Below are positions 22,015 through 32,201 of a stretch of 52,253 nt of DNA, one piece after another; the stretch's first letter is position 1; every line of letters starts with the position of its first letter. This stretch comes from Lentisphaerota bacterium (GTDB lineage: Bacteria; Verrucomicrobiota; Lentisphaeria; Victivallales; Victivallaceae): NCBI GenBank assembly GCA_015061605.1, contig SUWH01000020.1:1-52253 (forward strand). Reading direction: 5' to 3'. The notes beneath the pieces are model-generated. The model saw only the letters and a list, made by a program, of their open reading frames with translations. It was not told the origin of the DNA and did no database searches. The position numbers and the translations under genes were made by a program.

Positions 22015-23172
22015 TCAATCCACATGAGCAGCGTTAGCACTGGTGTTGACTTCATAAATATAGTTGCGGATGCGTTCGGTGCGCCAGTTGTTGGGGTGAA
22101 AACTCAACGGAGCAACATGACCGTCAATAAAGAGCATATTGCATTTGCGGCTGTGACGGAAGTCATTGTAATTTCCCCCGGTGGAACCGTAAAAAAGGGC
22201 ATATATCGAATAAGCCCCGGTATCTGCGGTCCCGGGCGCGGTCCCGGAACTGCGTCGGTCGGCGATGGCAAAAGCTTTGGCCGGCTGTTTCACCCGGTCG
22301 CGTTTGCGCCATGCCCGGAAGCGCGGTGTGCTTTTGTAACTGATGCCGCCCAGTGCCGGATTGTAACCGTAAGAGAATAATTTACTCTGATTCATGGTCG
22401 ATGCAACGCTCGGACAGACCATGACATGAGTGATATCTGATGTGTTTTCAGAAGATTGAGTCGGAGTGCCGTTTCCATCGATTTCAGTGACGATATTGAT
22501 TGATGGTTTCTCCATCATCCCGGTTGCCATAAGCATATGATACCACTGCCACTTTTTGTTGGATTGCGGGAACATTTTTATCGGGAATGTACCGGTTGCA
22601 ACTCCAATTACATCATTCTTTGCATCTCCATCATCTTTGACATTCATCACCTGTCCGGGCTGGGAGGGGACGAACCAATCTGCAAAACTGTCGGCGTAAC
22701 CATGCAAGGATTTGCCGATCTGGTTCAAGTTGGATGTACAGCTTGCCGCTCTGCCGCGCTCGCGCGATTGCTGTAACGCCGGAAGCAGCATCGCCGCCAG
22801 AATGGCGATGATGGCAATGACTACCAATAGCTCGATCAGCGTGAACGCTGATCGAATGAAGCACGGCTTCGCCGTATGAAGCATTTGCTTGCGGCAAATA
22901 TGAAGCGCACTGTCTGTGCATGAAGCGCTTGCTTTGCAAGCATTATGGTGTACCCCCAAAGCCGGTTTCTGCGGCGCTTTCCTCCGTACTTTTCCGTACC
23001 TGTCCGTACACATCCGTACCAACGCGCCGCCCCCTGCGGCTTGCATACCGGTACGGTTATACAGAACTTTTGCATGATTACGGCAATATTGTGCAATAAC
23101 CACGAGCAGTTCGATCAGAGTGAACATGATTTTTTTGCGGCGGCATTGACGGTGAATAAATGAGTCCAACAT
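22015..23172 (-). CDS. Prepilin-type H-X9-DG protein with duplicated N-terminal signature
   Basis: The C-terminal two thirds is a standard type IV prepilin/pseudopilin-like secreted protein of the PVC type: [25 protein letters not shown] (second signature, Phe codon at 22843-22845), a conserved [10 protein letters not shown] helix end and [13 protein letters not shown], which fits H-X9-DG. Oddly, a first [11 protein letters not shown] stands 93 codons earlier (23092-23124), cut right after VVIA and joined in frame to about 82 codons of hairpin-repeat DNA. The two signatures differ in codons, so this is not a recent tandem copy. Start at ATG 23172 follows GGAGG. Whether the long form is made, or which signature is processed, cannot be told. 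It leads an operon with DUF4838 and Gfo/Idh genes. Confidence 0.75.
22832..22941 (+). repeat. Hairpin array 1: five palindromes joined by four ATGAAGC linkers
   Basis: ATGAAGC occurs at 22856, 22876, 22900 and 22920. Between and around the copies lie five different perfect palindromes: TCGATCAGCG/CGCTGATCGA (22832-22855), ACGGC/GCCGT, ATTTGC/GCAAAT, GCAC/GTGC and GCTTGC/GCAAGC, with loops of 3-5 nt. The first palindrome covers the codons of SAFTLI in the second prepilin signature, so the array runs directly into the coding start of that gene on the minus strand. Translated on the minus strand it stays open. Confidence 0.9.
22981..23020 (+). repeat. Four 10-bp tandem units with TCCGTAC core
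   Basis: TCCGTAC recurs at 22983, 22993, 23003 and 23013, exactly 10 bp apart, with three variable bases between copies. They lie 40 bp from hairpin array 1, inside the in-frame insert of the prepilin gene. A further GTACGG lies at about 23052. Confidence 0.9.
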
Positions 23173-23211
23173 AAATTTTACCTCCATGTTTGGTTGCTGT
23201 GATTTTTTGCC

Positions 23212-31916: not shown

Positions 31917-32131
31917 CCGCTTTTTTTGAAAAAGGATGGGGAAAGTGTTGATTTGCTGAACACAAATCAACGTGAAGCGCAGGATAAATCCTGCGTGAAG
32001 CATTGCTTCGCAATGTGAAGCTTTTTGCCTGAGGCAAAAGTGAAGCGCTCGCTTGCGCGAGTAAGGATATGATATGCAGCGTTTTGCGACAAACTGGAGC
32101 AAAACACACCCCGCTTTTTTTGAAAAAGGAT
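31917..32131. repeat. 21-bp direct repeats flanking hairpin array 2
   Basis: CCGCTTTTTTTGAAAAAGGA plus T occurs identically at 31917-31937 and 32111-32131. The 173 bp between them contain the hairpin array and GTTTTGCGACAAA, whose complement also occurs near 1206. Confidence 0.85.
31947..32061 (+). repeat. Hairpin array 2: five palindromes joined by four GTGAAGC linkers
   Basis: GTGAAGC lies at 31972, 31995, 32015 and 32040. The palindromes are GTTGATTT/AAATCAAC (31947-31971), GCAGGAT/ATCCTGC, ATTGC/GCAAT, TTTTGCC/GGCAAAA and CTCGC/GCGAG. The layout is the same as in array 1 but the stems are different. On the minus strand the first palindrome with its linker reads RFTLI, like the start of a prepilin signature. 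The array lies in the probable 3' untranslated region of hpt. Confidence 0.9.
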
Positions 32132-32137
32132 AGGGGT

Positions 32138-32201
32138 ACGGGGGAAGGGAAAAACTTTTTTTCTCGTGAAAAAAAGTTTTTCCCTTCCCCCGTTTTTTTT
32201 C
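32138..32201 (+). terminator. Very long terminator hairpin (25-bp perfect stem)
   Basis: 32138-32162 and 32169-32193 are perfectly complementary around the loop CTCGTG, followed by eight T. It would end transcripts from hpt. It ends four bases from the stop codon of the convergent FAD oxidoreductase gene. The stem is made of G, A and T/C runs rather than mixed sequence. Confidence 0.9.

Follow-up and report, generated by a model that had tools for sequence, protein, structure and literature searches.

The window analysed here, a stretch of 52,253 nucleotides, carries inside a prepilin gene an array of five hairpins joined by a fixed linker of 7 nt. The array probably forms the 3′ portion of a palindromic mobile element, short and non-autonomous, with one exact target site in prepilin genes. 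The idea of a mobile hairpin element had been among those put forward in the initial annotation, and it was supported by the many copies found, by their single precise target, by the presence of different elements in near-identical genes and by two empty paralogues. The span then annotated did not include the left junction (23102-23124), the element body (22944-23101) or the arrays at tRNA 3′ ends.

Structure of the window element and its array

The right copy of the FTLIELLV signature (residues 113-135) was matched by TIGR02532 with 32.6 bits (cut-off 16.3), and PF07963 gave 30.8 bits (cut-off 21.2). The N-terminal methylation motif is thus above the curated cut-off, which identifies the host gene as a prepilin (type IV pilin or pseudopilin) gene, and the match to PF07596 assigned the gene body to DUF1559. 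The interval from one signature copy to the other consists of a 5′ part, about 150 nt long, and the hairpin array (Table 1). At the gathering threshold no Rfam family was found within the window (six matches were obtained, all of them tRNA and none in the window).

Table 1. Positions of the element, its host gene and a second array in the window.
Feature	Position	Strand	Basis
Fused prepilin ORF, 390 aa: leader, left FTLIELLV, element peptide, right FTLIELLV, DUF1559 body	22015..23187	-	ORF list; TIGR02532, PF07963, PF07596
Left FTLIELLV copy, regarded as signature codons native to the target gene, at present within the leader	23102..23124	-	junction comparison
Inserted element (type T3), 279 nt, in frame, element-borne right signature copy included; the precise 5′ end may be as much as 9 nt further inside	22823..23101	-	same layout in C11, C24, C36
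Element 5′ part, conserved from ACAATATTGCCGTAATCATG, with repeated TCCGTAC on the + strand	22944..23101	-	sequence; C11, C24, C36 copies
Hairpin 0, stem 6	22927..22941	.	sequence, folding, covariation
Linker ATGAAGC (coding strand GCTTCAT)	22920..22926	+	sequence
Hairpin A, stem 4 in the window, 5 in the majority of copies	22907..22919	.	folding, covariation
Linker ATGAAGC	22900..22906	+	sequence
Hairpin B, stem 6 here	22883..22899	.	folding, covariation
Linker ATGAAGC	22876..22882	+	sequence
Hairpin C, stem 5	22863..22875	.	folding, covariation
Linker ATGAAGC	22856..22862	+	sequence
Terminal hairpin (palindrome with 11-bp arms): leader DNA arm (TCGATCAGCG, coding strand) and FTLIE-codon arm	22832..22855	.	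sequence, events, covariation
Right FTLIELLV copy, element-borne, mature pilin start; cleavage predicted at SA/FTLIE	22823..22845	-	junction comparisons
Second array, four GTGAAGC linkers and palindromes, intergenic; same architecture, different family	31972..32046	+	array comparison

In the genome to which the window belongs, three other contigs (C11, C24 and C36) matched the whole element stretch at 90-95% identity, and a fourth (C34) shared the array with a different 5′ part. These five arrays, with that of the window counted, all adjoin the FTLIE codons, at the same codon position, in different prepilin genes. Since the whole stretch recurs and always at this site, the unit is the element, of which only the 3′ half had been noticed initially. 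The TCCGTAC repeats of the window (22985-23022) are also present in the C11, C24 and C36 copies.

On re-reading the sequence, the four ATGAAGC copies and the five palindromes described previously were all recovered, and folding of the coding strand as single-stranded DNA gave exactly these five hairpins (z = -4.09; none of 200 shuffles did as well). The array is not a product of chance: when chains of identical 7-mers with palindromic spacers were scored in 200 windows simulated at equal length with a first-order Markov model, the longest chain was of 2, against 4 in the window, which was reached in none of the 200. In the own genome 14 linker pairs were counted, vs. one with the pattern reversed as a control; the spacers of at least two of these pairs are non-palindromic. 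Such pairs were also matched in relatives (68 of 78 family genomes), but many of these genomes had only one or two, with non-palindromic spacers, as chance could produce.

Two more claims made about the array were only partly sustained or failed. The stems do differ within the array while the linker is fixed; nevertheless, they are not free to vary, because the ordered hairpin set recurs elsewhere with compensatory changes. The presence of GCTTC in several loops was not found, since the exact motif occurs in one of the five palindromes (hairpin C), and linker-loop pairing is therefore no general feature. The linkers are spaced 20, 24 and 20 nt apart and fall in different reading frames; the constraint is therefore on the nucleic acid and not on the peptide, and selection on a peptide-level repeat was rejected.

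Covariation was studied in 30 distinct arrays sharing one fixed linker spacing, with arrays of other spacing left aside. In this set 97.6% of the cells were paired vs. 91.6% in shuffles, and structures slid along the alignment paired 46.4% at most. Changes on both sides were present in 13 of the 33 pairs against 5.5 in shuffles, none of 500 shuffles being as high. Hairpin A showed the strongest signal, one of its pairs being A-T in 15 arrays, C-G in 14 and G-C in one. The hairpins are thus maintained through compensatory changes, a result equally compatible with a DNA and with an RNA structure.

Two other structures of the window deserve description. The second array (window 31947-32061) lies between two convergent genes, and a related block occurs as a tandem in another contig, C47 (L019), of this genome. 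Besides, a long intergenic hairpin at window 32139-32192 consists of GGGGGAAGGGAAAAACTTTTTTT and its complement, and a similar hairpin stands directly before the FTLIE codons in another locus (L231). To judge from this resemblance, the hairpin at 32139-32192 may represent another element family aiming at the FTLIE target.

Copies, junctions and mobility

Loci picked by their linkers alone provided 23 array-FTLIE junctions in three genomes (G000, G044 and G021). Among the 20 loci of G044 fetched in this way, 17 had the array at FTLIE codons, two were cut by a contig end and one (C106) was of the tRNA-end type described below. A scan of genomic contigs for the terminal hairpin yielded at least 103 stretches, all titled Lentisphaeria or Lentisphaerae. 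The 18-nt junction, with one mismatch at most, was present in 29 of 387 genomes of the phylum, the reversed control giving one match. Counts reached 71 in G044, 40 in G048, 30 in G036, 23 in G028, 14 in G032, and 10 in G358, from a different family within the order; the own genome had 6. Seven genomes among the 29 fall outside the order and have 1-3 matches each, as chance could give. No match to the element was obtained in viral contigs (exact pattern) or in phage and plasmid records (distant blastn). All the genomes are drafts and many arrays are located at contig ends.

As the scan set and the phylum set overlap, events were made unique by sequence, and 72 events with both junctions, drawn from the full collection of loci, were sorted by script into types T1 (33), T2 (19), T4 (7), T3 (3) and others (10). 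These types have the 3′ end in common and differ in their 5′ parts and in their array linkers (GCTTCAT or CTTCAC), and individual copies measure 114 to 279 nt. The left end of T1 and T2 elements comes directly after YTNGT of the target's own codons; the conserved part of T3 starts 9 nt later. The ten pairs of the terminal hairpin were perfect in 64 of the 72 events.

The origin of the right signature copy could be deduced from the comparison of both copies. In L138 and L177, whose proteins are 99.5% identical, the DNA is identical over the 67 nt shown past the junction and has two differences within the right copy, so the right copy arrives with the element. A CTA codon at position 17 is carried by 37 of 108 right copies and by one of 23 empty genes. 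That the first 14 nt of the right copy are constant is in part a product of the selection, most loci having been fetched with a pattern that fixes them, a bias of which the linker-chosen junctions are free. For T1 loci, agreement between the left and right copies did not exceed that of shuffled copies (p = 0.645), whereas in T2 the copies agree at two positions (p = 0.005); identical copies were seen in seven of the 72 events, several of them tandem. A MITE of the target-site-duplicating (DDE) type was consequently rejected for T1, given that its copies are uncorrelated and that the right one is element-borne, with some agreement remaining in T2.

The insertions preserve the reading frame of the gene. 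When left copies were sought upstream in all frames, and not only in frame, one was within reach for 66 of 119 right junctions and none for the other 53. All 66 stood at a multiple of three with no stops between, whereas an open frame was retained by 8.1% of base-shuffled elements. Of the 72 events, all are open in the frame used, 18 and 13 in the two remaining forward frames, and none in a reverse frame.

Closely related genes were found with different occupants. L106 and L201 (92.6% amino acid identity) carry T1 and T2, respectively, L190 and L208 (97.4%) different elements or variants, and L138 and L177 two T2 variants. Of two L186 paralogues on one contig (81.8% identity) one is empty, and the same is true of two L193 paralogues, also on one contig (71.0%). 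The nearest empty relative of the window gene is L234 (G040), at 51.5% identity, with no empty site from a closer strain. Altogether, 107 distinct genes were occupied and 25 were empty, a proportion in which occupied genes are over-represented because loci were fetched by the element. Stacked elements in one gene were observed in L095/L078, L129, L145, L163, L206, L219 and L228, and in L095, L129 and L206 the stack is made of different types.

These data bear on the other origins that may be considered for the array. A structured leader inherited without movement in one prepilin subfamily, and kept for translational control, would account for a secondary structure conserved with covariation; it is nonetheless very improbable, as orthologous genes that are 92-99% identical carry different elements, paralogues are empty and several elements are stacked in one gene. 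Growth of the array unit by unit from the FTLIE codons, which had also been suggested, is unsupported because the complete ordered hairpin set and the conserved 5′ part recur jointly. The array as a recombination site for exchanging prepilin bodies is at most conjectural, although one orthologous pair has a conversion-like divergent patch beside the junction.

A related explanation, in which the elements have no dedicated transposition machinery and the flanking FTLIELLV copies serve as homology for their spread among prepilin genes (homologous recombination or template switching), is one that we consider possible but rather doubtful. Signature copies do stand on both sides of the elements, but the homology is only of about 23 nt and often mismatched, and the left copies are variable right up to the junction; random crossovers within 23 nt should yield mixed left copies. 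L190 and L208 align over 2.9 kb at 93.6%, with 80-90% identity in the first 90 nt from the start of the right copy vs. 97-100% up to 420 nt, as recombination would leave; in contrast, L138/L177 has no divergent tract past the junction and L106/L201 no clear patch. The tandem copies with identical flanks of L145 and L163, and the fact that the Y1_Tnp and RVT_1 searches revealed no consistently present recombinase, also agree with this explanation.

Arrays at tRNA ends, S23 genes and the search for a mobiliser

Arrays were also found at the 3′ ends of tRNA genes. We examined 20 array loci, 19 chosen from a longer list (G018-G021, genera g11 and g12) together with C106 of G044. A tRNA gene was present in 12 of the 20. 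Each of these 12 has a T run and GC immediately behind the CCA, the array following directly after the CCA/T run in nine of them. Most arrays of this set are two-sided, with GCTTCAT linkers in one half and ATGAAGC in the other, so that the halves are complementary. In all of the 26 tRNA loci examined the CCA was followed by a T run, and in 14 of these the element holds the complement of the last five bases of that very tRNA (TGGCG/CGCCA, TGGTG/CACCA or TGGTA/TACCA); the complement was not found in the other 12. In two loci (L115 and L120), where two elements are stacked behind the tRNA gene, a repeated tRNA 3′ end separates them, as if this end were rebuilt at each insertion. L119 (G019:C52) has a pair of equally oriented array copies separated by about 1.6 kb that contain other ORFs, and no transposase was seen.

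Genes for S23 proteins adjoin some of these arrays. An S23-like gene was detected by tblastn with a 51-aa query in six of the 20 array loci, two of them broken. PF05635 was matched in 20 of 34 genomes of the genus, in 17 above the curated cut-off, and in 12 of the 14 good genomes. Of the 21 genus S23 loci scanned, 14 have a tRNA gene, which is upstream on the same strand in 13 of the 19 oriented loci. In the genus (19 loci) the 450 nt upstream of S23 hold 7.3 hairpins, vs. 2.7 in shuffled sequences and 3.6 downstream, while in a sample from the phylum (23 loci) the values were 2.65 and 2.61 shuffled, with no excess, and no locus had a tRNA. These counts exclude the loci without the orienting motif (11 of 30 in the genus and 7 of 30 in the phylum sample), one locus (L262) was read wrongly by the script, and the phylum loci are the best-scoring ones, so that another S23 subfamily is over-represented. 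A general link between S23 and arrays was accordingly rejected outside this lineage. The array detector was positive in 7 of 30 S23 loci against 0 of 20 Y1 and reverse transcriptase loci. In the own genome, contig C4 (L263) has a tRNA-Ser, an array and an S23 gene that was confirmed by PF05635 and TIGR02436, its closest solved chain being 2rld. A different arrangement was observed in L211, upstream of about 4763, where the hairpin array preceding the S23 gene has a repeated linker, ACGATGT, unlike the others.

Both contexts were compared with 80 of the at least 103 scan loci included, and the linkers GCTTCAT and CTTCAC were found in the prepilin as well as in the tRNA/S23 context. Because linkers are shared and the terminal hairpin is half target in 14 of the 26 tRNA loci, the prepilin elements are possibly kin of the S23/tRNA-end elements. 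In its full form, this reading makes them ORF-less members of an S23 element family that inserts behind tRNA CCA ends, with S23 acting in trans, and we give it a chance only slightly under even. The frequent tRNA genes, the CCA running into the T run of the element, the excess of hairpins upstream of S23 and the positive array detections would all fit, and the complement of the tRNA's own end parallels what the prepilin terminal hairpin does for FTLIE. However, this complement is missing in almost half of the tRNA loci, shared linkers could be convergent, and the phylum sample indicates that S23 by itself does not imply arrays. Moreover, S23 (PF05635) had no match in G048, with 40 junctions, and only broken S23 was found in G044. 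The genomes being incomplete drafts, the absence of a gene from them is weak evidence.

The same consideration applies to the transposases searched. The last hairpin ends 9 nt before the junction, which would suit the end geometry of IS200 elements and hence a non-autonomous element of the IS200/IS605 or REP kind that a Y1 (HUH) transposase moves via ssDNA. The hairpins, the insertion after a short fixed YTNGT and the lack of target duplication in T1 would be in line with such an element as well. Nevertheless, Y1_Tnp was matched in only 11 of 34 genus genomes and neither in the own genome nor in G048. None of the 12 Y1 loci holds the element's end and one holds a prepilin signature; nor did these loci, from incomplete genomes, reveal IS200/IS605 matching ends around a tnpA copy. 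RVT_1 was found in 8 of 34 genus genomes, with no match in the element-rich G044 and a short one in the own genome, and the element's end was missing from all 20 fetched Y1 and reverse transcriptase loci. Both enzymes were rejected as consistent partners, and movement by a Y1 transposase appears unlikely. REP and BIME sequences, which go with RAYT transposases, are palindromes with a short unpaired GTAG or CGTC tag (PMC3733652), and they resemble the present arrays in having unpaired tags beside palindromes, many copies and close pairs. Identity with the REP/RAYT system was rejected, since here the linker is a 7-nt ATGAAGC or GTGAAGC, the stems differ within the array, and no Y1 gene flanked by the repeat was encountered among the sparse Y1 loci (12 of 12 without the element's end).

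Relation to known systems and proposed mechanism

Mobile introns that home are inserted exactly between two fixed flanks and leave the host product preserved. The element is similar in both respects, but it has no endonuclease ORF and its removal would take place at the protein level, by a peptidase. A group II intron derivative was rejected, with no Rfam match in the window, no RVT_1 in G044 and a short match in the own genome. CRISPR was rejected too, as its repeats are longer and identical and its spacers unique and non-palindromic, whereas the linkers here have 7 nt and the palindromic spacers recur between loci.

Elements of this kind in prepilin genes appear in none of the titles and abstracts listed from open-licence PMC papers. 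Besides the REP sequences, the closest parallels come from three systems. RPE of Rickettsia are palindromic repeats of 105-146 bp, located between genes and also in frame inside protein genes (PMC2229807). The similarity lies in short palindromic repeats fused in frame to coding genes (here 66 of 66 in frame and without stops). RPE differ in their unrelated target genes, long stem and terminal inverted repeats; the present elements are confined to a single exact site of one gene family, contain chained hairpins with a fixed linker and bring a copy of the interrupted codons. Their host is also different, all of the at least 103 stretches recovered here being titled Lentisphaeria or Lentisphaerae. 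The intervening sequences (IVS) of 23S rRNA are stem-bordered insertions, some of them with an S23 ORF, which have been proposed by some to be mobile and whose function and origin are called unclear (PMC4990558). They share with the present case the stem-bordered insertion in conserved structural genes, and here S23 genes adjoin arrays with shared linkers. IVS occupy helix 9, 25 or 45 of 23S rRNA and have their transcript excised by RNase III; the window element is in a prepilin gene, has neither S23 nor any other ORF of its own and contains several fixed-linker hairpins, and the S23 genes of this lineage follow tRNA genes. Finally, PARCEL are translated palindromic repeats that spread in genomes and encode a 25-residue protein motif (PMC2996958). 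Translation and spreading are common to both, but the linkers of the window are in different frames and no peptide motif is repeated.

In summary, the left end of the element is placed right after the FTLIELLV codons of the target. At its other end stand the fixed-linker hairpins, the last of which pairs leader DNA with the FTLIELLV copy brought by the element itself; the gene is kept in frame and the 11-residue signature stretch is restored before the pilin body. For the mechanism, we propose that the hairpins would act as ssDNA or RNA structures recognised by a trans-acting machinery. The most suggestive candidate would be kinship with the tRNA-end elements carrying a gene for the S23 four-helix-bundle protein, because linker families are common to both and the half-target rule for the terminal hairpin applies in about half of the cases.

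Prepilins in general are cleaved before an FTLIE-type signature, and the classical residue at position -1 is Gly. As the prepilin peptidase cuts before FTLIE, we infer that the whole peptide of the element would join a longer leader and be stripped with it. All 107 distinct occupied genes encode Ala at position -1, largely a consequence of the hairpin used to call occupancy, and this position was mixed in the 25 other genes (S in 7, R in 4, K in 4, and others). The insertion would then be nearly neutral, and the large family of prepilin genes would offer a safe landing field.

The most complete form of this proposal, which we advance tentatively and would sooner bet against than for, is a mobile element removed at the protein level, ORF-less kin of the S23/tRNA-end elements specialised on the prepilin signature, with S23 as its mobility factor. 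If it were true, the element would parallel introns and inteins, with a peptidase as the agent of its removal, and S23 four-helix-bundle proteins would serve the mobility of hairpin elements that rebuild the end of the gene in which they land, be it a tRNA or a prepilin gene. The main reading, a probable mobile element of prepilin genes, already implies a selfish DNA able to persist at high copy number inside coding genes by landing in a leader that should be disposable and bringing a replacement for the displaced codons. It explains the long leaders of Lentisphaerota prepilins, which a gene caller would read as native protein. In addition, it links the tRNA-end arrays with S23 genes to the prepilin elements, and this natural high-copy system would make the proposed mobility of S23 intervening sequences testable.
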